Virus record (IMG/VR): IMGVR_UViG_3300007770_000094
Location: 1 to 23,876 of that record
Length of the DNA: 23,876 bases
Reading direction: 5' to 3' (one strand)
Source: a virus
Shown here: positions 901 through 19,909 of the stretch, piece after piece
Layout of the letters: each line of letters opens with the position of its first letter
Position numbering within the stretch: position 1 is the stretch's first letter
The notes under the pieces: generated by a model
Seen by the model: the letters and a program-made list of their open reading frames with translations, nothing else
The model's database searches: none
What the model was told of the DNA's origin: nothing
Position numbers and translations under genes: made by a program

Positions 901-1075
901 TTCTCTTTAACAACTCCTCTATTGCGGCGCCAACACTTTCTGGATTTTCAGCGAGCGTTTTTTCAAAAAACTCCAAAAGTCCCTTGACAACTTCCCACTT
1001 TTCCTCCGATACCTTTGCACACTCCTCTAAGTATTTAGCTTCTTCCTCTGTCAAACCAATCTTTTCATTGCTCAT
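893..1075 (-). CDS. Small acidic helical protein, 60 aa, unknown function
   Basis: ATG at 1075, with AGAGGG about 6 nt upstream as ribosome binding site. The start overlaps the tape measure stop by one base (TAATG), and the stop overlaps the next gene by 8 bp, so the three genes look translationally coupled. The product is almost entirely helical and Glu/Lys-rich (EEEAKYLEECAKVSEEKW), with no membrane segment and two features of amphipathic helices around residues 8-40. I do not recognise it. A small soluble protein directly after a tape measure could be a tail assembly factor or baseplate subunit, but nothing in the sequence proves this. Confidence 0.8.
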   Translation of the reverse strand: MSNEKIGLTEEEAKYLEECAKVSEEKWEVVKGLLEFFEKTLAENPESVGAAIEELLKRNG

Positions 1076-4000
1076 TATTGACCCTCTGCTGTGGCTAGCG
1101 GTGTTGTCATAACTGATTTATCAACCAGAACACTACCTACCTTATTCGCGTCCATTGTAACGCTAAGGTTAATTGTTATATTAACGGGCTTGTTCTCTAC
1201 GTTGATGGATTCGGAAACGCTGAATGCATCGGCAACTTTCTGGAGGTTTGCGTTGAGATTAATCTCTGGTAATCCGTCTAGCGCGGTGTTGATAGAGTTC
1301 ATCTCCTCGACCATCGAGAGAATTGCTTGTGCAGCGGGGGTTGGTCCATCAGATCCACCAACCAGATTCTTAAGAAACGCGCCGGCGCGCTCTGTCATCG
1401 ATGGAGAATTTGCTTCCCCGAGCTCCGTAAATTTACCAAGCACGTCAGAAAGAGCGACTGTCACATTAAACAACTGATCTAACTTATCAACTTGTGATTG
1501 AACCTCTTCAGCTCCAGGGATGGCACTCAAACTTGAGATAACCTGCGGCATCGTCGTGGCCAGGGCAGATAAACCGCCGGCCATTCCGTCGAATAACGTT
1601 TGTACTGATGGTCCGTCTATTCCCTTTACAGATTCTTCAGCAATTACCTGAATTTTCCCTAGCGCGTCCATCATGGGACCAAGCGCCTGGAACATAATCT
1701 GCATTGATTCTGCTTTTTCCTTGAATCCCGATGGAATTCCTGCGCCAGCTGTAATGAGCGCATTGATTATTGTTGGTAGCTTTTCAGCTAGCATGTCCAT
1801 CATGTCGCCAAGCCCACCAATTACAGTGCTCATATTTGACGCGGCGCTGGGGTTGAAGAACCCTGTCATTGAGGATACGAGTGCTAACGGCTCGGCGATC
1901 GCGGCTGCGAACTGAGCGACGGCGGCGACGACGTCTCCGACGACTGCTGCTTTCTCAAGATCACTCTTGCTATATCCAACAGCAAGTCCCACCAACGTGG
2001 TTACAGTGCCAACTAGAGTGTCCTTAATCTTATCAAGGAAGCTCCCCATTAAATTAAAGACCTTGTCCATACCGCCTTTACCAAGCGATTCGGCTGCAAC
2101 ACCCAATTTCCCAGCATCAAGAGCAAGACCACCAAGGGCCTGAAGCGCTGTGGCCACACCACCGATAACTTCCATCCTTGCGGCCATATCTTCAGGGTCA
2201 GCGATTGGTATTGTTGCAGCTGCAGCGACCATTGCACCGACTGCTACCGCGGCACCAACCATAAACACTGACAATCCACCAAGACCCCAAAGTAAGAAGG
2301 GCAGGATAGGAATCATCATTCCAAAAAGAGCAGCAAGTGGAACGAGAATAGCCATCGCCAATGAAACCTTAAGCATCATCTCGATCATTGGCATGATTGC
2401 AGCTCCTTTCATGACATCCCCAGCGACTGTCGATGCGATCGCTAAAGCGGCTGCGAAAGCCAATACACCAACAGTTAGGAATCCAGCTGCTGCTAACATT
2501 CCCGTGATTATCATGGGGGCAAATGCTGTTATTAGTGCGAAGGCAGCACCGACAGCAACCAAAACAGCTAATGCAAGAATTGCTTTACCAATTGTAATAA
2601 ACATTGTGTCTACTGCCGCCGGGTCGATGTTGGGGAGAGCGCCCAATAATAGCGCCAGAGCCCCTGCAAAGACGGCAACTCCAACAGTCAACATTAGCGC
2701 AGCGAGTAATAACCCACCCATCATAGGAATAAAGAGCGGAGCAGCCATCGCAAACGCGGCACCAACCAGCGCTAGCGCGGCAGTAGCAAGGATCGCCATA
2801 CCTAGCATTCCGAACATCTGCACAATTTCCATAAACGGGATTGGCTTAAGAATCATATGCACCAATTTTAAGGCCAATGCAAATGCCACCATTCCGATAA
2901 TCATCAGACCTGCAGCTAAAGCCATAAAGAGTAAGCCAGGCGCTGTGATGGGTGGAGCCAAAGAAAGACCAATCTTAGAGATAATAAACACAGCAAGAAT
3001 TGCAAGACCCATCACTGCAAAAATCTTCACAATCTCCAAAAACGGGATGTTTCCAATTAAAGCATATACGATCATTAGAGCCGCTGCGAATGGGATCATC
3101 CCAAGGCCAAGTGCTACAGCAGCTAAAGCCATGTTAACCGCTGATGATAATAACGTCCCAGGGTCTAAGAACTTCGCGGCGAGCATTACTAGCATTAGAA
3201 GCGGAATGACGACCAGCATAACCACGAATAATTTCGCGATTCCTTCCCAGGGCGCTACAGACATAATCATGGCGGCCATGACTATACCAGCAGCAAAGAT
3301 CGCAATTGCAGGAAGCAGCGAAGCCGCCATCAGGGCCAACTTGACGCCAGCCATTACGATATTTTTTGCATCAATTTTCGCAACGGAATCGATCAACGCG
3401 CCGAGGCCTTCGCCAACACCCTGAGCCATTTCTTTCATCTGCCCAGCGTCTGGCATCGATGCTTCAGCTGCATCAGCAGAATCCCCAACTGCTCCGAGCA
3501 TAAAGTCTGTTAACTTTTTGACAACAACTGCCCCTACAGCTGCTTGAACCGCGCTGATGGCTCCAAAGATAATCATCTTTCCAAGGACAAATGCAAGCAA
3601 CGCGCCACCAACGGCGATGATCTTTCCACCGTGTTTTTCAAAAACAGCTGATATAATATCAAGGAAGGCACCAAGCAACTCTGGAACGGCGTCCATAAGG
3701 GCACCACCTATACTAGAGATGGCTCCCATGATTGCACCACCTATCCCTTCAGACGCTGCGCCTTCGAGGTCTGGTGGGTTTCTGATGGCTTCAGCAATTC
3801 CCTTAAAAAAGTCTACAACCTTTGTTACAACCCAGGGTATCATTTGAGCAATCATCTCACCAACCCCGGTGATCATTCTTGAAATACCTTCCTTCAACTT
3901 AGTTGCTGCCTCAGAGTTTGCTCCGAAGAAATTTGAAAAAGATTCTGAAACCGAATCAAAGACGTCTGACAGCTTCACTCCCTCATCACCCTTCAGGAAA

Positions 4001-5766
4001 CTCATAAGCATACTAAATGCGCCAATAAGTCCTGTTCCTGTTTTCTTGCCAGTTTCATCGACACCTATTCCACCGAATAATGTCTTCAGGGCGTCGCTGT
4101 TGAACATGTCTTTAAGGGGACCGAGAATATCAAATCCACCAGAGCCTAGAAGCTCACCAAAAAGCTTACCCATTTCTTTACCAGCTTCAAACACCGTCTG
4201 TAGTGCTTCGCGGATTGCAGTTAAAAGTTCCTTAAATTCTGGGAATTGTGTTAAACCTTTCGTAAATCCTTGGGTTAATGCATCGAAGAAGCCGTTAAAA
4301 TCTCGGCCTGAGTTAAATACTCGATCCATCGTGTCAGCAAGCTTGTTCATCACCTCTGTTTGTGATAACTGCTTCTCTTCAGCTTCATCTGCGCCCGCAG
4401 CAATATCTTCGTAAGAAGTTCCCATATTCTCTTGTGAGAATGCAGTGGCAAGAGCCTCTTCGCTAAGGCCGGTTTGCTCTGCCAACAGTGCACGTTCTTG
4501 ACGTGTCATATCTTCGATAGATTTGCCTGCCTCATGGAAGGCATTCTTCATCATGTCGATTCGTTCGGCGGGATTCTCTGCGTTCATCATCTCCATGGTG
4601 TCAAGCTGGATACCAAACGCTTGGTTTAATTGGGATACGGAGTCAGCTGCTCCCTCGAAATCGTCAAACTTACCGATAACACCTTGGAGACCCTTAACAT
4701 CGATACCGAGCTTTCTAGCGTATACAGACGCCGCGGCCATTTCCTTGGTCGACATGGTTCCGAAGTTCTTGAAGTCAGCTGCCATCTCACCCATATCTTT
4801 CGATATGAGCTTGGAAGAGACCCCAAACTTATCGCCCATTTGAATAGAATAGTTGCCTACATCTTGAAGGGTATCTGTCAAACTCGAGCCGGAAGAGATA
4901 GCCATCGTTGCGAAACCGCTCATGGCTTCTTCTGATAGCCCCATCCCCTTCTTGAATGCAAGAATCTCGCCAGCTGAATTTGCGAACTCATCAGAAAGCA
5001 TTCCAAATTTAGGGCCGAGAGCCTCCGCTGTAGCGGCGAGATCTGCTAGGGCTGCAGCTACACCATCAGGGCCAACGCCGTAGACGGCCGCCAGACTCAC
5101 ACCTGTCCCACCTAAGCTACTAGACTGTGATTGAAGATTGCTTAAGCCGCTCATTAGAGCAGCGCCCTCGTTACTAGCTAGATCGCCAAAGCTTCCTCGA
5201 ACGTCTTCGATTCCTTGTCTTAAAGCAGATACACTTCCAGCCAGGTCATTAGCCATGCCGACTAGTCCGCTAAACATCTGGAATGGAATTGCAACAATAG
5301 ACAGCCCGATGTTTTTAATACCACCGATAACCGTACCGATCGTTGCACCCATCTGCTTTATATCAGCGATGGCGCTCTTAAACCCTTTAGCAGCACCCGC
5401 GGCAAAGCCAGCTAAAGCAACGTGTGATTCTTTAATATGGGATATCAGCTCGGCGAACGACTTGATTACTTTTTTATTCGCTTGTTCTGTGTCTTGAAGA
5501 CTGGTGGTCATTTCACCAATTTTGCCGCTGGCTTTATCGGCCTCGGAGGCAGCACCAGCTAAGCCATCTCGGACTTCCTTCATTTTTTGTTGGACATCAT
5601 CCAGGCCCTTACACTCTAGAGCCTTGCACAGCTGTACCGCGGTATCTACCTGGCTAGATAAATACTTTTGCTGCTTTTCCAGCACCTTCTGTCGATCTTG
5701 TAAAACCTTGTTGATCGACTGCTGGATAGCTAATTGCGATTGTAGTTCTTTCGAGTCTGCTGCCAC
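1075..5766 (-). CDS. Tail tape measure protein, 1,563 aa
   Basis: Tape measure proteins set tail length and are held inside the tail tube until ejection. Evidence: by far the longest gene, placed after tube and chaperone-like genes; an N-terminal coiled coil (residues about 5-110, rich in Gln, Lys, Leu); an Ala/Gly/Met-rich central part; strongly hydrophobic helices at about 640-760 and 805-1190; and a C-terminal beta-prone tail (NITINLSVTMDANKVGSVLV) of the kind common in tape measures. Residues 838-1190 form about six units of roughly 70 residues. The start is GTG (5766) with AAGGGTGG about 8 nt upstream; a GTG start is unusual among its neighbours. T4 gp29 has about 590 residues, so this one predicts a much longer tail, near 230-250 nm at about 1.5-1.6 angstrom per residue. 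No peptidase or lysozyme motif was seen. Confidence 0.93.
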   Translation of the reverse strand: MAADSKELQSQLAIQQSINKVLQDRQKVLEKQQKYLSSQVDTAVQLCKALECKGLDDVQQKMKEVRDGLAGAASEADKASGKIGEMTTSLQDTEQANKKVIKSFAELISHIKESHVALAGFAAGAAKGFKSAIADIKQMGATIGTVIGGIKNIGLSIVAIPFQMFSGLVGMANDLAGSVSALRQGIEDVRGSFGDLASNEGAALMSGLSNLQSQSSSLGGTGVSLAAVYGVGPDGVAAALADLAATAEALGPKFGMLSDEFANSAGEILAFKKGMGLSEEAMSGFATMAISSGSSLTDTLQDVGNYSIQMGDKFGVSSKLISKDMGEMAADFKNFGTMSTKEMAAASVYARKLGIDVKGLQGVIGKFDDFEGAADSVSQLNQAFGIQLDTMEMMNAENPAERIDMMKNAFHEAGKSIEDMTRQERALLAEQTGLSEEALATAFSQENMGTSYEDIAAGADEAEEKQLSQTEVMNKLADTMDRVFNSGRDFNGFFDALTQGFTKGLTQFPEFKELLTAIREALQTVFEAGKEMGKLFGELLGSGGFDILGPLKDMFNSDALKTLFGGIGVDETGKKTGTGLIGAFSMLMSFLKGDEGVKLSDVFDSVSESFSNFFGANSEAATKLKEGISRMITGVGEMIAQMIPWVVTKVVDFFKGIAEAIRNPPDLEGAASEGIGGAIMGAISSIGGALMDAVPELLGAFLDIISAVFEKHGGKIIAVGGALLAFVLGKMIIFGAISAVQAAVGAVVVKKLTDFMLGAVGDSADAAEASMPDAGQMKEMAQGVGEGLGALIDSVAKIDAKNIVMAGVKLALMAASLLPAIAIFAAGIVMAAMIMSVAPWEGIAKLFVVMLVVIPLLMLVMLAAKFLDPGTLLSSAVNMALAAVALGLGMIPFAAALMIVYALIGNIPFLEIVKIFAVMGLAILAVFIISKIGLSLAPPITAPGLLFMALAAGLMIIGMVAFALALKLVHMILKPIPFMEIVQMFGMLGMAILATAALALVGAAFAMAAPLFIPMMGGLLLAALMLTVGVAVFAGALALLLGALPNIDPAAVDTMFITIGKAILALAVLVAVGAAFALITAFAPMIITGMLAAAGFLTVGVLAFAAALAIASTVAGDVMKGAAIMPMIEMMLKVSLAMAILVPLAALFGMMIPILPFLLWGLGGLSVFMVGAAVAVGAMVAAAATIPIADPEDMAARMEVIGGVATALQALGGLALDAGKLGVAAESLGKGGMDKVFNLMGSFLDKIKDTLVGTVTTLVGLAVGYSKSDLEKAAVVGDVVAAVAQFAAAIAEPLALVSSMTGFFNPSAASNMSTVIGGLGDMMDMLAEKLPTIINALITAGAGIPSGFKEKAESMQIMFQALGPMMDALGKIQVIAEESVKGIDGPSVQTLFDGMAGGLSALATTMPQVISSLSAIPGAEEVQSQVDKLDQLFNVTVALSDVLGKFTELGEANSPSMTERAGAFLKNLVGGSDGPTPAAQAILSMVEEMNSINTALDGLPEINLNANLQKVADAFSVSESINVENKPVNITINLSVTMDANKVGSVLVDKSVMTTPLATAEGQ
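2182..3255 (-). repeat. About 70-residue hydrophobic repeats within the tape measure
   Basis: Six degenerate units are visible in the protein. The recurring core reads P-(W/F/M)-x-E-I/G-x-K-x-F/M-x-V-M-G-x-A-I-L-A and starts near residues 838 (APWEGIAKLF), 907 (IPFLEIVKIF), 976 (IPFMEIVQMF), 1047 (IDPAAVDTMF), 1125 (MPMIEMMLKV) and 1188 (IADPEDMAAR). Spacings are about 69, 69, 71, 78 and 63 residues. Each unit is followed by a second hydrophobic helix rich in Ala, Gly, Leu. The repeats are seen at protein level; I did not see near-identical DNA copies, so the duplication is old. Confidence 0.75.
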
Positions 5767-6095: not shown

Positions 6096-6347
6096 TTATG
6101 TGAATCTACGTAATTTTGACGGTACTTGTGCCCTGTGTTTACCTGCTAATGCTCGGGCATCAGCGGAATTTGCATGGGCAGCCCTGGAATCACCTTGAGA
6201 TTTCTTCAGCTCTTTGTTCAAGCGTTGAATAAACCATATACGTTGCCATATTGGAATGTTATAGACTTCTATGTACGAGAAGCCCATATAATACATCAGA
6301 GCGAAAATATGCTCTAAGAACGTTTCCTTATGACTACTCGTCAGGCC
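6096..6347 (-). CDS. +1-frame extension of the gp26-like protein (gpT-like tail assembly chaperone domain)
   Basis: This frame is open from a stop at 6390-6392 to a TAA at 6096-6098 and so overlaps the last 56 nt of the gp26-like gene. Entered by a +1 slip at the T7 run, it adds 83 residues: GLTSSHKETFLEHIFALMYY, then MGFSYIEVYNIPIWQRIWFI, then a Lys/Arg/Ala-rich tail. The first in-frame ATG (6296) lies in the middle of what looks like one continuous helix (FLEHIFALMYYMGFSY) and lacks a ribosome binding site at proper distance; AAGGAA is about 28 nt away. This favours expression by frameshift. The fusion would have about 361 residues. Tail chaperone pairs made by frameshift just before the tape measure are established for lambda (gpG/gpGT) and many other tailed phages; applying it here is inference. 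An independent 66-aa protein from 6296 is the alternative. Confidence 0.65.
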   Translation of the reverse strand, partial: GLTSSHKETFLEHIFALMYYMGFSYIEVYNIPIWQRIWFIQRLNKELKKSQGDSRAAHANSADARALAGKHRAQVPSKLRRFT

Positions 6348-7182
6348 AAAAAAACGCCGCCCCCAGGGGCAGTCTAACCTCCGAGTGCTCTAAACATGAA
6401 TTACAATCCATCCAGGCCTTCATCTGAATACCTGGTTCGTTCTTGTCTAGATGATTCCTAAATGCCAAAGAATCACGTGCAGGAAGATTACGAATAAACA
6501 AGTCAAGCTTAGATTTGTCCGTCACTCCGTTGACTGACACAATTGAGTAGCGTAGACGTGATGTAATTAGATTCTCTGATTGCGAACCTTGCTTCTTTCG
6601 CCGCTCTGTCGTAACCATAATCTCTTGCTCATCTTTACCGGTTAGGAACTTAAACCTAACCTTTGCCTTTGTGACAGGCATTTCGAACTCAAAAAGATTT
6701 ACGCCGTGAGAAACAGGCTCAATTCCAAGTCGATTAATCTCTAGCTCTCCTAAGTTAAAGTTTTGTTTCGAGCGCTGGCTGCAGGCTGGACAATCTACTT
6801 CTACCTTATAGTCTGCACCGTAACCTGTAACTCGTAATGCAACCATGATAGCATTTCTATCACCGGCCAACATCGACTCGGGATCAATCGATTTATCAAT
6901 TATACACGACTTTAAGAGGTGTGAGATAACTGTGCCTTTCTTAATAAGCGCCTTTGAAGTAAGAATGTCTTCCTCACGAGCGGTCATGGCTCTAATTTCT
7001 AAAGTCTCTTTATTGTGACATGCAGAATCTTCGGGATAAACTTTTCCCATGGACGGAAGTGGAACATTTTCAACAGGAATCTCAAACCCAAAATCGTCCT
7101 TCATGACGTTACGGGTAGGCATATTCTCTTTCATACCGCCGAATAATTCGCTTCTATCCGAACTCTCTTTTTTCTTTGACAT
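6334..7182 (-). CDS. 26: gp26/T4_baseplate-family protein, 282 aa, with zinc-ribbon cysteines
   Basis: ATG at 7182 with GAGG 8 nt upstream. Residues about 60-130 (EIRAMTAREEDILTSKALIK, then LLKSCI, GDRNAI, VTGYGADY) match my memory of the T4_baseplate family, which includes T4 gp26, a baseplate hub or hub-assembly protein. Two Cys pairs, CPAC at 131-134 and CNSC at 260-263, look like a zinc site. The C-terminus, GAAFFWPDE, is hydrophobic and short. T4 gp26 is about 208 residues, so this is longer. The gene sits after a terminator, directly before the tape measure block, where tail chaperones usually lie, and it carries a slippery T7 run four codons before its stop. Its role could be hub assembly, tape measure chaperoning, or both; the family call is moderately sure. 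Confidence 0.82.
   Translation of the reverse strand: MSKKKESSDRSELFGGMKENMPTRNVMKDDFGFEIPVENVPLPSMGKVYPEDSACHNKETLEIRAMTAREEDILTSKALIKKGTVISHLLKSCIIDKSIDPESMLAGDRNAIMVALRVTGYGADYKVEVDCPACSQRSKQNFNLGELEINRLGIEPVSHGVNLFEFEMPVTKAKVRFKFLTGKDEQEIMVTTERRKKQGSQSENLITSRLRYSIVSVNGVTDKSKLDLFIRNLPARDSLAFRNHLDKNEPGIQMKAWMDCNSCLEHSEVRLPLGAAFFWPDE
6348..6354 (-). promoter_or_regulatory. Candidate +1 translational slippery site, T7 run
   Basis: The zero frame reads GCG TTT TTT TGG CCT GAC GAG TAG. A Phe tRNA in the P site on TTT can shift one base forward onto another TTT, after which GGC CTG ACG continues in the +1 frame. The run lies within the 56-nt window where both frames are open. A -2 slip would reach the same frame but pairs poorly in the P site. 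A small hairpin (TGAC-GAGTA-GTCA, 6331-6343) follows, weak at 4 bp. A homopolymer sequencing error or transcriptional slippage are other explanations. Confidence 0.55.
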
Positions 7183-7340: not shown

Positions 7341-7829
7341 TTAGTATTGAAGGACTGCGTTATCGAAACGTAGGGTCAACGAAATTTCTTCCGGATCTTC
7401 CGCACCATAATCCAAGTCACCAAATCCGGCTGAGGTGAGGAAACATCCTTTGATGTCCCAAAGCTCGACTACTGTCCCTACTGGGTCCAGCATCTTGAGC
7501 TGACAATCACGCTTATAAAAATCCGCGTAACCGCCCCGGCCTGAAACCGACTCGTAGTGTGTGCGTACCCATTCCATAACCTGCTGCGCACCTGAGGGAG
7601 CAATTGGATCGTGAAGGGTAACTGAGATCGCATCGAACTTCGTCTTACCAGCAATCCACCGAGAAGAGTTCATGAAATTAATCTCAATCTCACCGGTGTT
7701 CATTGTCGGACGAGCCGCCGTCTTAATAAGGAATGCATCAATACCTTCAATCGCGAACACCCACCTAAATTTTCTTTTGGGCTCAAATTTGTTCGGCAAC
7801 ATGTCGGTAACTGAAAGAGTCTCTGCCAT
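7341..7829 (-). CDS. 19: Tail tube protein (T4 gp19-like), 162 aa
   Basis: Tube subunits form stacked hexameric rings around the tape measure. The length (T4 gp19 is 163 aa), the N-terminal part (KFRWVFAIEGIDAFLIKTAA), the central VTLHDPIAPSGAQQVMEWV and the C-terminal GAEDPEEISLTLRFDNAVLQ are typical of gp19-like tubes. Its place directly after the sheath genes agrees. ATG at 7829 has TAGGAG about 10 nt upstream, and a candidate promoter element 21 nt before the start. A strong terminator follows, so the gene can be made at high level from its own short transcript as well as from the sheath transcript. Only one tube gene is present although there are two sheath genes. Confidence 0.93.
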   Translation of the reverse strand: MAETLSVTDMLPNKFEPKRKFRWVFAIEGIDAFLIKTAARPTMNTGEIEINFMNSSRWIAGKTKFDAISVTLHDPIAPSGAQQVMEWVRTHYESVSGRGGYADFYKRDCQLKMLDPVGTVVELWDIKGCFLTSAGFGDLDYGAEDPEEISLTLRFDNAVLQY

Positions 7830-7870: not shown

Positions 7871-10800
7871 TTAAATTTCGGTTCCAGCGTTGGTTACGAC
7901 AAAATCAAGAGATATAAACTCTACGGACCTTGTCGGCTGGAGGAAAATCTTACCTCTGACAATGTTATTTTCCACATCGGCTTGCGTCGTTGTGGTAGTG
8001 TCGATCTGTACCTTGAATCGGTCTAGACCTTGCTGTGCTTGAATTCTGGCCAGAACTGGATTAACAGCAGCCGAGAACCTCGCCAACGTTGACTCCCTAT
8101 TGGGCTCGAAGAGGAATGTATCACCAATCGCTCGAACCTGGCGCCTAACATCGATTAGAAGCCGTCTTACATTGACTCTATCGAGCGCAGACTGTGCTGC
8201 GAGGAGAGTCTTTTGGCCAAATACCACAACCTCACCCTTCGTTTGTGGGAATGCTGTTATTGGGTTAATGTCTACATCATAAAGAGCATCAAGGTTTGAG
8301 CGGCTCAACTTCACTTGTGTTTCAAGAACATTCTTCAATGCACCTCGAGTGAATCCTGCTGGTGCAAACCAGGGATAAGCGACTGAATCGTTTAGTGCAA
8401 ACGCGCCGAGGACCGCAACGCTGGGTGGAACCTGTACGTTAGTAGAAGTACCCACATCAGTCATAATCACATCAGGGAAGTACGCAGCAGCGAAAGAGTT
8501 ATCCAAATTTCGCCCTGCAAAAGAATTCGCAGTGTTTGTAACACTCGCCAGCTGAGATGAACCAGATATTACCTCGTTGTAGGTGTCTTTCCCCTCGAGG
8601 TCCATAATATACATGGCATCAAACCGTTCTTCAACAGCTTGCATACAATAATCAGTGACGGCGGAATTTCTCTGACCTGGAATAGCCAACAACTGAATAT
8701 CCACATCTGAGCGTTCCTTTAAGACATCCATTGCTTTTCGATAAGCAGCGGTAACCTGACCAGTTACTCCGCCTTGTGCGGTGACATCAGCCATTTCTTT
8801 CGTTACAGCAATGTTTGAGAATGCTAGCTTTTCCTTGTTAAAGATATTAGACCCGTCAAACCCATTCTGCACGATAGTGGTGAACTTCAGGAACCTTCTT
8901 GTCGACGTCAAACCAAAGTCTGTTGCTACACTAAGTAGTCTAGACCCACCCGAATCACCAGATGTTCTAGCGGTTCCATCAATATCAGGAATACTCGCCG
9001 ATGCGATACCGGACCGCATATACTGTGCTGCTGCCCATTGCGATGAATCTGCTCGAGGGGTGGTGTCGGTGGTTACAACAACTTGGATATTCTCAAGAGA
9101 GAACTTGTTGTTATTGAACTTATCACAATCTAAAATCGTTCCGCTTGCATCAGCAACACCCTGGTTATTACCAACGACTGCTGCTTGACCGTTCTGCGAA
9201 TATGTGTTAAAGTACGTGCTATAGGATGCAATCGAGTTGTTCGTTTGAATGTTCCGGTTTGGCTCATCCACGCTATCTTGAATCGAGAACTGGACACCCC
9301 AATATAGCTCAGGGGCGAGCGACTTTTTCGGAGTCTTATTCTTAGAAACCATTAAGCGATATGGAATGGGTAGCTGTACGAGCTGAGATGCAACTTCACC
9401 GGCCATCACGTCCGTTACTGCGCTATCAGCAACAGAGAAAATCGAGGACCCTGATGTAATGAGGTGCGCTGGACCACGGAAACCAACGGGTAAAACATCC
9501 GCAGGAAGCTGTGCGTTATCCAGAAGCTTATTTGTCTCTACTCTAATGTAGTTAGACTTGTTGGGATATGCACCATCAAGTACAAGCTTTTGAGAACCTA
9601 CGCGCTTATCAAAATCATAATAGAGGTGGTAATTTCCAACTTGTCTTGCGATATATCTTTCTGAACCCGGGTCTAATGAAAGCTTAGAGAACTTTTCTAT
9701 CACAATCGGCTCAGAATCTGTATCATTAAAGTCTCTAACCAGTAAATCAAACGCTGAATACGGATTGTTTGTATTCGTCGACTTTGTAATATTTTCGACC
9801 GAGATCTTAACCCTGGTATTTCCAATCGCGCCATCGTCAAGAGCGTGAATCCTAAATAAGTTGTAATTCACTCCCCCGTATGCCTGGGAGATAATGTATG
9901 GAGAGTAAGCTGTACGAAATCTGTCAACGAACCCTTCAAAGTTTGGTACACTGGCGTCACCATTATTGTTTCTGCTAATGGATGATGTGAGTAAGAATGC
10001 AACATCCTCAGTCTTAACGGTTCCACCCTCAGTTATTGCGGCGTAGTCATCATCCACCAGCGATGAACCAGTAACATATGCTATGGCGGGATCGATCCCC
10101 CAATGCGCATAGAGATAGTGTCCAGCGTTTTGGATCTTAGTAGAATCAGTATTTAAAACGTTATAAAGATAATTGGGCGCCTTGGGATCAAACGAAGCAG
10201 TGATAATGGTTGGATACTCATCGGTGTGGCTATGACCATTTAGTAATAATACAAATTCCTGACGGCCACCAGCGAGATTGACTGATCCTACCGTGGAACC
10301 GGCATCTTGTGTAGCGCCCGCGCCGAACGTTCCTGCAGCTGCGTAATCATTTGCACCAGGGGCACCTAATGGAGTGTTGTTGGAAATAGCACTTCTTGAA
10401 GCGCTCAATGCCGGTACAACGCCGGAAGGAGCCATAACGACACCGCGAAGGATGGGTTGAACAGACTGCAGTCCTGCTGACGAGAATGCAGTTGAACTTC
10501 CCGACTCTTCCATGATGCAGCCGAGGAACCAAGTTCGTCCAAGAACGCCACCGTTTGTAGTTGTGGAACCAGCGTACGCATTGTCTCCAACTATGCCAGT
10601 GGCGCGCCACTGCTCAGCGCCTACTACGAAACCAGCATTAGTGACAGTTCCGTTCGAATTTCTCTTCTTCCCGTCTCCTACTCCTAGAATTCTAAGGTAA
10701 GTACCGGCTCTGGCGTAATTCAACCATTGACGCATCGCCATAGGTCCAAACTTTTCACCATCAGTATTACCGAATTCAGCCACAAAGTCTGCAAACGTAG

Positions 10801-10945
10801 CCATTGTTATTGGCACAAATGCTCGGCCCTGATTGGCTGTTCCAATCACACCTGCAGGTATTCCGGTCGGAGCAGCCTTAGTTGGGCCCGATAGATCGAT
10901 TTCTCTTGTAGAAACCCCGGGGCTCTTAAATGTCAGTTCAGCCAT
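7871..10945 (-). CDS. 18: Tail sheath protein 1 (T4 gp18-like), 1,024 aa
   Basis: Contractile sheath subunit. The N-terminus (TFKSPGVSTREIDLSGPT, then GIPAGVIGTANQGRAFVPIT) and the C-terminal core (AYPWFAPAGFTRG, VVFGQKTLLAAQSALDRVNVRR, then FEPN, and the final GKIFLQPTRSVEFISLDFVV) are hallmarks of gp18-like sheaths. The ends hold the conserved polymerisation domain; the middle, about residues 90-780, is variable and probably surface exposed. T4 gp18 has 659 residues, so this is about 1.5 times longer. It is the second of two adjacent paralogues; ATG at 10945 has AGGAGA about 9 nt upstream. The pair could form mixed sheaths or be used at different places or times; I cannot tell from sequence. 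Confidence 0.93.
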   Translation of the reverse strand: MAELTFKSPGVSTREIDLSGPTKAAPTGIPAGVIGTANQGRAFVPITMATFADFVAEFGNTDGEKFGPMAMRQWLNYARAGTYLRILGVGDGKKRNSNGTVTNAGFVVGAEQWRATGIVGDNAYAGSTTTNGGVLGRTWFLGCIMEESGSSTAFSSAGLQSVQPILRGVVMAPSGVVPALSASRSAISNNTPLGAPGANDYAAAGTFGAGATQDAGSTVGSVNLAGGRQEFVLLLNGHSHTDEYPTIITASFDPKAPNYLYNVLNTDSTKIQNAGHYLYAHWGIDPAIAYVTGSSLVDDDYAAITEGGTVKTEDVAFLLTSSISRNNNGDASVPNFEGFVDRFRTAYSPYIISQAYGGVNYNLFRIHALDDGAIGNTRVKISVENITKSTNTNNPYSAFDLLVRDFNDTDSEPIVIEKFSKLSLDPGSERYIARQVGNYHLYYDFDKRVGSQKLVLDGAYPNKSNYIRVETNKLLDNAQLPADVLPVGFRGPAHLITSGSSIFSVADSAVTDVMAGEVASQLVQLPIPYRLMVSKNKTPKKSLAPELYWGVQFSIQDSVDEPNRNIQTNNSIASYSTYFNTYSQNGQAAVVGNNQGVADASGTILDCDKFNNNKFSLENIQVVVTTDTTPRADSSQWAAAQYMRSGIASASIPDIDGTARTSGDSGGSRLLSVATDFGLTSTRRFLKFTTIVQNGFDGSNIFNKEKLAFSNIAVTKEMADVTAQGGVTGQVTAAYRKAMDVLKERSDVDIQLLAIPGQRNSAVTDYCMQAVEERFDAMYIMDLEGKDTYNEVISGSSQLASVTNTANSFAGRNLDNSFAAAYFPDVIMTDVGTSTNVQVPPSVAVLGAFALNDSVAYPWFAPAGFTRGALKNVLETQVKLSRSNLDALYDVDINPITAFPQTKGEVVVFGQKTLLAAQSALDRVNVRRLLIDVRRQVRAIGDTFLFEPNRESTLARFSAAVNPVLARIQAQQGLDRFKVQIDTTTTTQADVENNIVRGKIFLQPTRSVEFISLDFVVTNAGTEI

Positions 10946-10978: not shown

Positions 10979-13900
10979 TCACGCAAAGTCTACGCCACTG
11001 TTTGTAATGATAAAATCTATCGCAATAAACTCAATCGCCCTTGTGGGTACGACAACGATCCTACCATTCAACTTGTTGCTTTCAACATCTTGCGCGCTAT
11101 TGTTTGTGTCATCCATGACAACTTTGAATGACTCAATACCCTGCTGCGCTTGAATCGCGGCTAGTAATGGAGTCACTAGATTTATAAAGCGTCCTCTCGT
11201 CGCAGCATTATTTGGCTCAAACAAAATCTTGTTTGCGACCGCAACCACCTGGCGCTTCAATTCAAGCATCATACGACGTACATTAACACGATCCAATGCA
11301 GACTGAGACAGCTGCATTGTCTTTTGTCCAAATATTACAAACCCACCATTCGGGAAGTTTGCTATTGGATTGATTCGTACATCGTATAAATCATCTCGAT
11401 CGCTAGCAGTCAATCTTGCGTCAGTATTGGTTACCATCCCAAGACTTCCTCGATTAAACCCTGCGGGAGCGAACCAAGGATAAGCGACTGCGTCATTATA
11501 CCCAAGCGCTGCCAAGGCGGCAACTGACGATGGGACCAATACAGCTTGCTGATTGTTTGAGTCAGTAATATACACATCAGGGAAGTATGTCGCACAATAG
11601 TTGTTATCGATTGCTCGAGACTCAAATTGCTCCGCCGTTTCACGAACATCTGGGAATGAATCCGAAGAGCTCTTGATAAGAGTTCTGTTCTCATCACCAA
11701 ATAGGCGACCAGCATTCTCAGACCACGATGGGATGTCCATAAGGTAAATAGCCATGGAGTATGCCTTCGTCCTATCAGCAGCCCAATCCGTGACATAAGA
11801 ATCTCTTATTCCAGGGATGGAAAGAATATTATTTCGAACCGTCATAGGATCGGTCATAATTCTGGCAGCTTCCCGATAAGCGAAAATATTGTTATTGAGT
11901 CTACCGTCTCCAGCTGGATTACTTGCAAGCCCAATTGTTGTTGCAGAGAATTCCGATGATGCCTTTCCTGTCTCTCCAGAGGCGTCTGTTGACGTTGCTC
12001 TATCGTTCATTAAAGACATGTCCTTGTCCAAGATGTTTAAGCCATCCCAGCCACCGTACATTGGTGTTGTGAACTTCAGATATGCTGTAAATCTATTAAA
12101 CTTAATGGACGAAGACTGTGCTAGTGTTGCGAAGGTGATACGCTTACCATATCCGTCTGGATCTTCTACAACATATGTCTGAGAATCTGGAACACCATTC
12201 CTGATGTATGCTGCTTCTAGCATGTGCTCTTTTGCGGAAGCCGTAACCTCTGAGAGCAGAGTCGCGGGGGGTGTATCACTTCCTGTGCCCGCCAACGCGA
12301 CCTTTGCAAGGGTGAACTTGTTAGCGTTGAAAGCATCTACTGCGCTTCCCGATACTAGAGCATCAAGTTTAGAAATTCCCTGGAACTTAGTATATGCAGC
12401 TACGGTTGAATTCGGCGCGGAGGAAATATTCTGGTTCAAGATTGCGTTAGTAACGTCATCTTCCTTTGGACATCTTTCAAATTTTACGCCCCAGTAAAAG
12501 CGACCATCCACTCTTTCATCATCTCCGGGCCAGCCTGACATGAATGCGGTGGTGGATACAGCACCTCTGGTCACCTTAAAGCGCATTGGAAGGGGAGGAA
12601 TAATCGATCCAGTCATTACGAGGCCATCAGCACTACAGTCACCCCACAACCGTGTGTTTCCAGTGTTTCCATAGGGAACGCCACCAAACTCAAGGCGTGA
12701 TAGAGAATTATCAGTTAAAGAATCAGACGTCTTGAGGGCTGGAATACCAGAAAAGCCGAAAGGTAAAGAGTCAGTAGGAACCTCACTTCTATATACCGCT
12801 TCATTTATAACCGTGCGAATGTATACCGACTGATTGGGATATTTTCCACTGACGATGATTCGACGTTCGTCATCATTTTCAGCATCAAAGTTATACCACG
12901 TCTTATAGTCGCCAACTTTTCTACCAATAAAGCTTTCAGAATTTGGGTCTAGATTGCACTCTGGATAGCTCTCAAGAATCTGGGGGGCTAAGTCGGTATC
13001 GTCGAATCGTCGAACCTGGACCTCGAATGTTCCGTACCTATAATTCTTGTTTGTACTAGCGCGAAGGTTTGCTATAGAAATCTTTACTTTATCATTTCCG
13101 TAAGCACCATCAGATAGACTTTCGAACCGGAAAAGAGGATACTCTGTCCCTCCGAATGGTTGCGAAATAATCTGGGGACTTGTGGGTGTTGTGTAGCGAG
13201 TGTCATAACGCCCAAAGAGCATTGTGAATTCATTCCCTGCACCAGACTGTAAAGTTTTTCCAAAGTTCGCAGACCCAGACAGAAGGGCCACGCCGGCTGC
13301 AGAGGTCGCAACTGGTGCGATTTCATCTTCAACGGCAAAATCAAGATATAGGAGATGCTGTTCTTGAACGAATTTCGTGGGGTCGGTGTTCAATACATTC
13401 GAGATGTACGCTGGAGAAGCTGGATCTAAAGATGCAGAAACAATCTTGACACCCGGTACCACAGTACCATTATTATCTTCTTGGTTCGCAAAAGTTGTCC
13501 CAAGCGAAGATGAAATAACGACAGCAAATAGACCACCACTATCAATTTGGCACTCATCGTCGACGGTGCTCGTCCACGTTTCATCCAGGTCTATAACTTG
13601 TGTACGTGCTGTTGTGGCATTAAAAATAACACCCCGAACTATTTTCATAGCATCGGCGTTATTAAAGCTCGGATTGTCAGTGAACTCTGGCATCGCAACT
13701 GCTTCGGAGGCTGCAGCATCATGTCGAGCACATAGGAACTGTACAACGCCATTGTTTGCATTAGAAGTCGAAGCAGAAACGTTACCGGACAAAACAAGAC
13801 CAGCATTAACAACTGTTCCATAATTTTGTGTATTCGTTATCTGTGATGTTGTTTCATTCGCTCCGGCACCTAAAACGCGCATGTATGTTGCAGCAGTTCT

Positions 13901-14128
13901 ATTTTTTAAGAATGCTTGAACCGCGTATGGTCCAAATCGATCAGGATCTATTGTTCCAAATCGATTAACAAAGTCTTGAAAACTACCCACAGTTACGGGT
14001 ACAAATGCTGGTCCCTTCTCAGCAGTGCCTATAATTCCTGCTGGAACTCCGGTTATTTCGGTCTTTCTTGTTGACGCATCTATTTCGCGCTCAAAGAAGC
14101 CGGGGGATCTAAATGTCTGTTCTGCCAT
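10979..14128 (-). CDS. 18: Tail sheath protein 2 (T4 gp18-like), 1,049 aa
   Basis: Clear paralogue of the next gene. It begins TFRSPGFFEREIDASTRKTE then GVPAGIIGTAEKGPAFVPVT, and ends with AYPWFAPAGFNRG, FVIFGQKTMQLSQSALDRVN, and IVVVPTRAIEFIAIDFIITN. Similarity extends into the middle, for example LDPNSESFIGRKVGDYKTWY against LDPGSERYIARQVGNYHLYY in sheath 1, so the whole gene was duplicated and the copies then diverged; short segments in the centre do not align by eye. Both are far longer than T4 gp18 (659 aa). ATG at 14128 follows CCAGGAGA with about 10 nt spacing. The 65-bp gap to the gp15-like gene holds no clear hairpin. Sheath 2 lies first in the transcript. Confidence 0.93.
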   Translation of the reverse strand: MAEQTFRSPGFFEREIDASTRKTEITGVPAGIIGTAEKGPAFVPVTVGSFQDFVNRFGTIDPDRFGPYAVQAFLKNRTAATYMRVLGAGANETTSQITNTQNYGTVVNAGLVLSGNVSASTSNANNGVVQFLCARHDAAASEAVAMPEFTDNPSFNNADAMKIVRGVIFNATTARTQVIDLDETWTSTVDDECQIDSGGLFAVVISSSLGTTFANQEDNNGTVVPGVKIVSASLDPASPAYISNVLNTDPTKFVQEQHLLYLDFAVEDEIAPVATSAAGVALLSGSANFGKTLQSGAGNEFTMLFGRYDTRYTTPTSPQIISQPFGGTEYPLFRFESLSDGAYGNDKVKISIANLRASTNKNYRYGTFEVQVRRFDDTDLAPQILESYPECNLDPNSESFIGRKVGDYKTWYNFDAENDDERRIIVSGKYPNQSVYIRTVINEAVYRSEVPTDSLPFGFSGIPALKTSDSLTDNSLSRLEFGGVPYGNTGNTRLWGDCSADGLVMTGSIIPPLPMRFKVTRGAVSTTAFMSGWPGDDERVDGRFYWGVKFERCPKEDDVTNAILNQNISSAPNSTVAAYTKFQGISKLDALVSGSAVDAFNANKFTLAKVALAGTGSDTPPATLLSEVTASAKEHMLEAAYIRNGVPDSQTYVVEDPDGYGKRITFATLAQSSSIKFNRFTAYLKFTTPMYGGWDGLNILDKDMSLMNDRATSTDASGETGKASSEFSATTIGLASNPAGDGRLNNNIFAYREAARIMTDPMTVRNNILSIPGIRDSYVTDWAADRTKAYSMAIYLMDIPSWSENAGRLFGDENRTLIKSSSDSFPDVRETAEQFESRAIDNNYCATYFPDVYITDSNNQQAVLVPSSVAALAALGYNDAVAYPWFAPAGFNRGSLGMVTNTDARLTASDRDDLYDVRINPIANFPNGGFVIFGQKTMQLSQSALDRVNVRRMMLELKRQVVAVANKILFEPNNAATRGRFINLVTPLLAAIQAQQGIESFKVVMDDTNNSAQDVESNKLNGRIVVVPTRAIEFIAIDFIITNSGVDFA

Positions 14129-17962: not shown

Positions 17963-19909
17963 TTAGATAATATCCATGTTCATGACCGTGACTGTACCGT
18001 AGAAGTCGGAACGTACCATCTTCTTGCCATACCGAGTCATCACACCCTTACGAGGAGTGAAGTCCTCAGGAGCGAAGATTGTCGGAGTAACAATCAGGGG
18101 TACATAAGGAGCATATACGTAACCAGTCTCAAGGTAGCTACCGCCCTTATACCCAACAAGAATCTTGTTGCGTGGGAAGTAGGGGTCCTTATAGACCGTG
18201 AAACGGTTGCTCAGGGTACCGACCTTCTCTGCGCCGAGAGTCATTCCACCAGTCACCTGACCGTCACCATCAATGGTGTAGGCTGGGCGGTAGAGGATCG
18301 AAGCCTCGAGGATGGTAGCAACATCAGGGCCAACGACCATGAAGTTTGCAGAGCCTCGGAGAGTCTTACGATGAATCTCATTAGCAACATCGATAATGGT
18401 CTCGACCAGGGTCTCGTACCATTCGCGAACCGTACCAGTAAAGGAAGGCCCGGCGGATGCGGATCTAGAAACAGCTGCACCGTTACGCTTATTGACAAAG
18501 TCACCAGGCGAACGGTTCCAGTAGAAGTTGGTATCAGCTTCCATCAAGAGATCGTTAAGGATCTCACGATCGATCTCAAGAGCAATCTGCTCAGAGAGGA
18601 TTTGAGTAAGCTCAACCTCAGCGTCAAGGCTGTGGTAAGCATTCAAGTCCTGAGCAAGCTCTGGGGACCAACGAGCACGCAGCTTCCGAGTGGACGCCAC
18701 GACCGAGATGCTCTCGATCTTGATGTCGATTTCGGGAATAACCGGTTGCGCATCGCTCTGGCTGAAGTTAGACTCGAAGACGGGAACCACAAGGGTATCG
18801 CCATCGTTACCAACATTCAGAGAGTTGCTCTTCGGAAAGACAACTGACCAGCAACCGAGGTCGCCTGTACCGATGTTCGTACCAGAAAGTACCATCAAAA
18901 GTGCAGAACCAGCCTTACTTGCAGCAGCCAGTGGATCACTAGAAATGGCGCCACCATCTGAGCTGGACTTAACGAGCTGGTTAAGACGACGGATGTTATA
19001 CACATTCCGGCCGCCCTGCCATGTCTCGCCAGGAACCGCAAGGTCAGTATAGGGAGCTGCCAGACCATCACCAGCCTGGTTTTGAAGCGCGGAGTCAGTA
19101 CCAGATATAACAAGGGCTGCTTCCTTAATCATACGAGGATCGAACTCGGACCCGAGGGTGCCAAGATCAACGGTAACGAAACGGAATGTTCCGCTCTCTG
19201 AATCGATTGCCCTAGTTACCTGGGGATCGAACTGGAGAAACCGACCATCTGCACCAGAAGATGCAGCGGAGCCAGCTGACGTTGTACGACTTTGAGTTGC
19301 ACTGTTTCCAAGCACGAACTGGTTGGTTGCATCAAGAGTAACATCGACCCTTGCATGAACCTTTGAATAACCAGAACCAGCCAAGTCATACTGTCCACCC
19401 GTTCCCAGCGAACCAGAGCGAACGCCCTTACCCGCGGGGTTATTATATATGGACTGACCCTTGCCGTATGTACTCTTAGTGCTAGTACCAAGACCGGTAT
19501 CTGCACCGGAACTAGTTTCCGCAACACCACCCTGGTTAGAACCATAAGTGTAGTCAAGGTAGAAGAGTAGGCCGGACGGCAAACTCATAGGCTGGATTGA
19601 AACCAGCTCATTCGCAACCAGACCGCCGAATACTCGACGAACGATTGGGAATGCAATATTAGTGAAACCTCGGATGTCACCAGATGAAGCTGCAGGCGCT
19701 AGCCCACCACCACCGAGAGTATTCTGCTCTCGTAAAATCTGACCTGCCTGGTTCTCGAGCAACTGTGCCATGTTTTCACGATGGACGCTCTCGAGACCCC
19801 GCAAGAGACCAGTCCGAGTCCACTTTTCTGTAAGGCGCCGACCGTGATCGCCCATGTGGCGCGCTCGGATACCTTCGGTCAATTGACCAAGTGTGAACTT
19901 CTTAGACAT
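17963..19909 (-). CDS. 23: Major capsid protein (T4 gp23-like), 648 aa
   Basis: Forms the hexameric lattice of the head. Diagnostic parts: residues 83-115 (TNIAFPIVRRVFGGLVANEL then VSIQPMSLPSG), matching the gp23 start of the HK97-like fold; residues 406-450 (STRKLRARWSPELAQDLNAY then HSLDAEVELTQILSEQIALE); and the C-terminus (FAPEDFTPRKGVMTRYGKKM then VRSDFYGTVTVMNMDII). T4 gp23 is 521 aa and loses its first 65 residues to the gp21 protease; here L-R-E at 59-61 is a candidate cleavage site of the (L/I)xE type. Extra length comes mainly from a Gly/Ser/Thr-rich segment at about 125-230, likely exposed. ATG at 19909 has a perfect AAAGGAGA site about 9 nt upstream, suiting very high expression, and a strong terminator follows. 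Confidence 0.96.
   Translation of the reverse strand: MSKKFTLGQLTEGIRARHMGDHGRRLTEKWTRTGLLRGLESVHRENMAQLLENQAGQILREQNTLGGGGLAPAASSGDIRGFTNIAFPIVRRVFGGLVANELVSIQPMSLPSGLLFYLDYTYGSNQGGVAETSSGADTGLGTSTKSTYGKGQSIYNNPAGKGVRSGSLGTGGQYDLAGSGYSKVHARVDVTLDATNQFVLGNSATQSRTTSAGSAASSGADGRFLQFDPQVTRAIDSESGTFRFVTVDLGTLGSEFDPRMIKEAALVISGTDSALQNQAGDGLAAPYTDLAVPGETWQGGRNVYNIRRLNQLVKSSSDGGAISSDPLAAASKAGSALLMVLSGTNIGTGDLGCWSVVFPKSNSLNVGNDGDTLVVPVFESNFSQSDAQPVIPEIDIKIESISVVASTRKLRARWSPELAQDLNAYHSLDAEVELTQILSEQIALEIDREILNDLLMEADTNFYWNRSPGDFVNKRNGAAVSRSASAGPSFTGTVREWYETLVETIIDVANEIHRKTLRGSANFMVVGPDVATILEASILYRPAYTIDGDGQVTGGMTLGAEKVGTLSNRFTVYKDPYFPRNKILVGYKGGSYLETGYVYAPYVPLIVTPTIFAPEDFTPRKGVMTRYGKKMVRSDFYGTVTVMNMDII

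Follow-up and report, generated by a model that had tools for sequence, protein, structure and literature searches.

The gp26-like gene of the virus analysed here very probably specifies a tail assembly chaperone of the gpG/gpGT type, which would be made in two forms by +1 frameshifting close to the end of the coding sequence. Sequence comparison suggests that, in this phage and in many of its relatives, ribosomes move ahead by a single base at one set position. The analysis covered a stretch of 23,876 nucleotides (IMG/VR record IMGVR_UViG_3300007770_000094), referred to below as the window; positions are those of the window, and the genes of the locus lie on its minus strand.

Organization of the gp26-like locus

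The gp26-like gene (6334..7182, minus strand) was delimited by ORF reading and encodes a putative short product (the G or TAC-N form) of 282 aa. It matches the T4_baseplate family of Pfam (PF12322; E 2.3e-15, 57.3 bits against a cut-off of 24.5) as well as PHROG_150, "baseplate hub" (E 1.9e-18). The 3′ end of the gene reads CTG GGG GCG GCG TTT TTT TGG CCT GAC GAG TAG and includes a run of seven Ts at 6354-6348. The candidate +1 slip site is TTT TTT TGG (6346..6354, minus strand), with UUU in the P site and UGG in the A site. The +1 frame is open on the minus strand from 6389 to 6096, and both frames are open together for 56 nt (6334..6389). Past the slip site, the +1 frame extension comprises 83 codons (6099..6347, minus strand; stop codon at 6098-6096) and encodes a domain, hereafter the T domain, resembling the C-terminus of gp51 and DUF6760. 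The joined reading amounts to 361 aa. The T run, the +1 frame, its 83 codons and the 56-nt overlap are as described in the original prediction.

The second ORF overlaps the first in another frame and continues as conserved coding sequence, as in chaperone loci, and the location is likewise that of such loci, between the tail tube and tape measure genes with one small ORF intervening. The tail tube protein gene lies upstream (7341..7829, minus strand; PHROG_4542, E 8.5e-30; Pfam Phage_T4_gp19, E 2.6e-5, under the Pfam cut-off) and the tape measure protein gene downstream (1075..5766, minus strand; PHROG_167, E 1.3e-5; Pfam TMP_3, E 4.3e-5, under the Pfam cut-off). The original placement of the locus directly before the tape measure gene has to be amended, since an 83-aa ORF (6076-5825) sits between the extension and that gene. 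This small ORF, also on the minus strand, has no PHROG match at E ≤ 0.01; similar stretches were found behind the extension in 14 of the 93 loci searched, two of these being copies of the window's own.

Elsewhere in the window, two neighbouring large sheath-like genes (7871-10945, 1024 aa, and 10979-14128, 1049 aa) are 33% identical to each other and both match the PHROG_23 tail sheath family. A gp23-like capsid gene (17963-19909, 648 aa) has its best stretch of Gp23 family match at about residues 380-640.

Conservation of the +1 extension

Searches of viral contigs yielded 14 and then 80 loci which, together with eight phage records, made 102 loci among the matches listed; two were cut inside the gene, leaving 100 readable. 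In 97 of these 100 the T domain was assigned to the +1 frame, with an overlap onto the gene end, as counted among the matches listed with an extension profile built from nine of those loci or the window, some loci being copies of one another. Two of the remaining three loci have the domain in another frame, and in the third the contig ends 12 nt past the stop. Addition of four more +1 loci (L105, L111, L115 and L116) brought the set to 101 loci and 96 distinct sequences. Further scans returned at least 115 loci, of which 8 were cut and 14 already known; among the 93 new distinct loci listed, profiles made from the earlier loci placed the T domain in the +1 frame in 89 and in another frame in 4. 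None of the 93 distinct loci listed lacked an overlap between extension and gene. A cruder rule, taking the longest open frame behind the stop, gave +1 in 85/93 and another frame in 8/93, the profiles having shifted four loci to +1. Scans of this type favour the loci nearest to the query, so that relatives are sampled unevenly. Alignment of relatives had been proposed as a check on the +1 overlap, and the overlap proved to be kept in both series.

The same arrangement is found in the isolate genomes of Microcystis phage Mel-JY01, Flavobacterium phage immuto, Bacillus phage SP-15 and Rhodothermus phage RM378. Six of the named +1 records annotate a short ORF within the extension, two annotate nothing there, and none joins the gp26-like gene and the extension into one gene. 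"Baseplate hub" genes of named phages that are followed by a short ORF or a gap are candidates for re-annotation. L200, one of the four new loci outside the +1 frame, carries TTC TTT TGG at the end of the gp26-like gene with its T domain in the −1 frame and A AAT TTC upstream; it may be a genuine −1 locus or reflect faulty assembly. Four loci (L221, L224, L226 and L230) have the +1 overlap and none of the UUU/CUU sites sought; the pattern that they match is CCC_A.

The window extension contains two in-frame ATGs, which fall at residues 296 and 299 when the two frames are read as one protein. Both fall inside a predicted helix (282-299), and no Shine-Dalgarno sequence was seen before either of them in the window, in line with the original description of ATGs buried in a single helix without a ribosome binding site. 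In the set of 89 sequences used for the slip-site tests (those of the 96 distinct sequences with a Phe or Leu codon before TGG; 7 were dropped), 9 extensions contain no ATG and 3 contain no ATG, GTG or TTG anywhere. An ATG is present at codon 6 after the slip in 17/89, and an early start codon with a crude 4-base Shine-Dalgarno match in 9/89; a separate start is thus possible in these sequences.

Substitution patterns were used to ask where coding selection begins. Across 78 usable sequences (722 pairs, more than 55% identical), the pN/pS ratio of codons 6-15 was 0.24. Over codons 6-44 it was 0.27 in the true frame, as opposed to 1.19 and 1.96 in the other two frames. Because the short stop lies 18 nt behind TGG in 17 sequences, where codon 6 consequently touches the stop, and because some sequences have early starts, the test was repeated on a stricter set. 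ATG, GTG and TTG are absent from codons 0-15 in 54/89 extensions; in 44 of these 54 (232 pairs), codons 7-15, which lie beyond the short stop and ahead of the helix methionine, gave 0.33, compared to 1.15 and 1.18 when read in the two alternative frames. Since these codons are selected as protein with no usual start ahead of them, translation reading on from the upstream gene is favoured. The comparison thus shows, as far as sequences can tell, that the +1 extension is under selection as conserved coding sequence, that it continues where the upstream gene leaves off and that the slip codon is fixed.

The proposed slip site and its upstream cassette

Wherever the residue before Trp is Phe, its codon is TTT (79/79; in the remainder of these genes TTT makes up 69.5% of Phe codons), and wherever it is Leu, the codon is CTT (10/10; 28% of Leu codons in the remainder); these slip-codon counts, like the site and cassette counts below, ignore shared descent. 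Where Pro follows Trp, its codon is CCT in 85/86 sequences, against 33%, which would follow if the +1 frame must read Gly-Leu. The Gly-Leu reading of the +1 frame persists in L078 and L099, where Phe or Ser takes the place of Pro; L057 and RM378 have Gly-Pro and Gly-Ile in that frame, respectively. When the 185 distinct +1 loci listed were assigned to classes by an ordered list of patterns, 123 fell under YTT_TGG, 33 under TTT_TAY, 20 under TTT_CGN and 9 under other sites. Sister clades carry TTT_TAC or TTT_CGN at the slip position. The conserved extension, the selection ahead of the usual starts and the fixed third base of the slip codon all speak for the programmed +1 shift that was originally predicted.

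Seven Ts are present in 73/89 sequences, and in the other 16 relatives with TTT/CTT-TGG the longest T run is only 3 or 4. Six TTC TTT CGN sites have just three consecutive Ts with the frame relation unchanged. The original prediction had set the slip on the T run: a shift at that point fits the frame conserved among the relatives, but the element that is kept is YUU_U rather than a long run. The identical run of seven Ts occurs in L001, L002, L003 and L004, which are near-identical copies on separate contigs; a homopolymer error at this place was ruled out by these copies and by the relatives with short T runs. A −2 slip was rejected purely by reasoning, since re-pairing would be poor for the CTT and TTC variants.

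Two elements preceding the site are possible stimulators of the slip. One is an internal Shine-Dalgarno-like sequence, CGGAGGT (6377..6383, minus strand; −10.2 kcal/mol, read on the identical locus L001), about 25 nt upstream of the P-site codon. The other is a potential hairpin, CTGCCC-CTGG-GGGCGG (6357..6372, minus strand; −9.3 kcal/mol), between the Shine-Dalgarno-like element and the slip site. Over the 89 loci, complementarity to the anti-Shine-Dalgarno sequence is strongest at positions −36 to −28 counted from TGG, with a mean energy of −9.47 against −4.63 under synonymous codon resampling (20 replicate means, −5.3 to −4.1). The mean folding energy between the element and the site is −4.33, compared to −2.78 (sd 0.15) in 60 rounds of within-column synonymous permutation; no folding excess was present in an upstream control stretch. 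In the prfB gene of bacteria, the Shine-Dalgarno-like element is positioned a few nucleotides upstream of the slip codon, whereas here the spacing is about 25 nt and, in many loci, a hairpin intervenes.

With thresholds chosen on these same 89 loci (Shine-Dalgarno-like element ≤ −8 and hairpin ≤ −4 kcal/mol), the element passed in 74/89 against 2.3% of 1780 control positions, the hairpin in 51/89 against 3.8%, and both together in 49/89 against 0.1%. Out of sample, the new loci pointed the same way; those of the TGG class had the element in 16/34 (control 10/680), and the hairpin, which was weak there, in 8/34 (control 12/680). New loci of the TAY class had the element in 29/33 (control 12/660) and the hairpin in 21/33 (control 7/660), while six new TTT_C loci had them in 2/6 (control 3/120) and 5/6 (control 0/120), respectively. 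Among 6414 in-frame positions in 11 genes of the window, both thresholds were passed only at the gp26 site (and two adjacent positions), at one place in the tape measure gene and at one in a sheath gene. A single consensus covarying hairpin was sought across loci and not found.

From these comparisons we infer a model that comprises the shift itself, its rate, a stimulatory role of the Shine-Dalgarno-like element and the hairpin, and the chaperone role. Most ribosomes would terminate at the stop codon of the gp26-like gene and release the 282-aa short form. A minority would pause while tRNA-Phe occupies the P-site UUU and the A-site codon UGG is still to be read. The paused tRNA would move one base forward onto the overlapping UUU and translation would continue for 83 further codons, generating a 361-aa form that ends in a C-terminal helical domain related to the gp51 C-terminus of T4. 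The hairpin might shorten the effective distance from the Shine-Dalgarno-like element to the site or draw the mRNA forward. The short form, in many copies, and the long form, in few, would coat the tape measure protein, recruit tube subunits and depart.

We considered whether the extension might be a separate small gene, having its own start or being coupled to the upstream stop. This is quite improbable, given the coding selection ahead of any usual start, the extensions (3/89) devoid of ATG, GTG and TTG, the fixed slip codon and the +1 overlap with the gene end in 97/100 and 89/93 of the loci listed. Some observations do point that way, namely the short ORFs and lack of joined genes in the annotation of the six named +1 records, the codon-6 ATGs and Shine-Dalgarno-matched early starts (17/89 and 9/89), and one locus, L118, in which a small ORF starts at TAATG without a slip heptamer. 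Transcriptional slippage on the seven Ts, deleting one base in part of the mRNA, would account for the 73/89 loci with the full run, and yet the frame relation is the same in the 16/89 with at most 3 or 4 Ts and at the six TTC TTT CGN sites with three; short runs at so many sites make this mechanism very improbable. As to a sequencing error or a decayed gene, in which an indel would have broken one true frame, a homopolymer in metagenome-derived sequence is a natural suspect; the recurrence of the arrangement in named isolates and in 185 distinct +1 loci refutes this explanation, which is almost certainly wrong.

The frameshift could also be real and its product a structural part of the baseplate hub with an optional C-terminal domain instead of a chaperone. 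We regard this as unlikely. Database names do say baseplate hub, and a 2010 review, in the part available, reports genetic support for gp26 in the hub (PMC3004832); table 2 of the same review, however, gives gp26 and gp51 as hub assembly chaperones. The record of phage Stupor names gp26, gp28 and gp51 tape measure protein assembly chaperones, and a published study, as represented in papers citing it, names T4-like tail assembly chaperones.

Relationship to T4 gp26/gp51 and to known frameshift systems

The chaperone reading, with its short and long forms, gains support from T4. Both gp26 and gp51 of T4 match PF12322, the family matched by the G part here, and when the two are compared PHROG_634 is matched by gp51 (residues 147-246) and not by gp26. 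In hhalign comparisons, the extension profile matched gp51-type C-termini (gp51 of T4 and Stupor and four small gp51-like ORFs) with E 1e-5 and a probability of 82%, the group with the domain in the −1 frame (see below) with E 1.1e-7 and divergent +1 members with E 1.6e-10; the single T4 gp51 gave a weak match (E 0.29) to the first, small extension profile. Just 4 of 26 relatives' extensions matched PHROG_634 (best E 0.0071), and the window's own extension had no PHROG match. Pfam DUF6760 (PF20546) scored 16.2 bits with the window extension, below its curated cut-off of 27, and matched 20 of 26 relatives' extensions at E up to 0.5 (best 1.1e-7). T4 gp26 and gp51 resemble the short and the long product, respectively, and this homology, probable for the C-terminus of gp51, supports the gpG/gpGT analogy drawn originally. 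Three plasmid searches with gp26-type proteins gave no match. A genome scan for a bacterial DUF6760 link gave one locus, and 392 genomes of its phylum yielded 4 PF12322 matches.

A structure model of the fused protein was poor overall (pLDDT 66.5, pTM 0.41); the extension helices (282-330) scored 78-91 by block and the junction (248-278) below 50. Among solved structures, a sequence comparison with the G profile and a fold comparison with the fused model both gave no match. Among predicted viral structures, the fused model matched the gp26 family (17 hits at E ≤ 0.001).

In eight jumbo and other phages (Paride, OLIVR5, XacN1, Munch, Atu_ph07, LR756511, Sf-FS3 and RL38J1) the domain lies in the −1 frame; their sites, T TTT TTC, T TTT TTT or T TTT TTG, coincide with the same Phe codons or lie close to them. 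Atu_ph07, LR756511, Sf-FS3 and RL38J1 have an ATG at the stop or a few bases off, so that translational coupling is possible in these four as well. Cygsa01 has TAATG and no heptamer. Only Sf-FS3 (−9.8) of the eight passes the Shine-Dalgarno threshold in the stretch before the run. A tree of 39 rows nests five −1 rows among the +1 rows (support 83/58), several forks being open and two rows long; the other three −1 rows were placed with T4, and the T4-type gp26 and gp51 cluster (94/90). The forward direction originally proposed is favoured at the present locus; other lineages look −1 at the same place.

Comparison with known systems draws on those parts of the cited papers that were accessible. 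Lambda makes a short gpG and a −1 frameshifted long gpGT ahead of the tape measure gene (PMC5009743). The locus described here shares the short and frameshifted long forms and the position, and differs in the direction (+1), in the slip site and in having a gp26-family G part. In the Vandenendeviridae/Andersonviridae chaperone, where the −1 site is GTTTTT (PMC12846349), poly-T likewise lies at the 3′ end of the short gene with the extension before the tape measure gene; it differs in direction (−1), and its site resembles the T TTT TTC of the −1 relatives. A +1 shift at TTT-CGC was proposed for the chaperone locus of HF1-like haloviruses (PMC7230728); the +1 relation before the tape measure gene and the TTT_CGN found in 20/185 loci recall that case in position and motif.

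According to an earlier account, conservation of tail-chaperone frameshifting is widespread among long-tailed phages, "except T4" (PMC5009743). Two papers citing Vladimirov et al. 2022 report, respectively, that the chaperone of some T4-like phages is encoded by a short gene beside a longer fusion gene (PMC10885494) and that T4-like genes contain poly-T −1 signals (PMC12846349); by our own reading of these citing passages, the genes meant are those of gp26 and gp51. With T4 the present locus has in common the PF12322 G family and the related gp51 C-terminal domain; T4, however, has two separate paralogous genes on opposite strands where here one gene has an overlapping +1 extension. The relatives set the frameshifted form beside the two genes of T4 and suggest how gp26 and gp51 are related to each other. 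The literature, as far as accessible, yielded no description of +1 frameshifting in genes of this family; Vladimirov et al. 2022 may contain one.

The closest parallel for the site is bacterial prfB, with its +1 site CUU_UGA_C (PMC5009743). In prfB, and putatively here, a P-site YUU followed by U slips onto UUU, and at both sites C follows the A-site codon, the difference being that the A-site codon here is a sense codon in place of UGA (UGG in the window and in 123/185 loci; UAY in 33). It is conceivable, at somewhat less than an even chance, that the locus represents a new class of bacterial +1 cassette, in which YUU plus a sense codon (UGG/UAC) is preceded by an internal Shine-Dalgarno sequence about 25 nt upstream and a compact hairpin in between, that one codon pair served the lineage for shifts in either direction, +1 or −1, and that in T4 a gene duplication giving gp26 and gp51 took the place of the frameshift. 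The many natural variants of this putative bacterial +1 site, whose A-site codon is a sense codon, make its direction and its stimulators open to testing. Altogether, the kind of chaperone is known and its two-gene version in T4 has been published; by comparison, the +1 site and its cassette look new.
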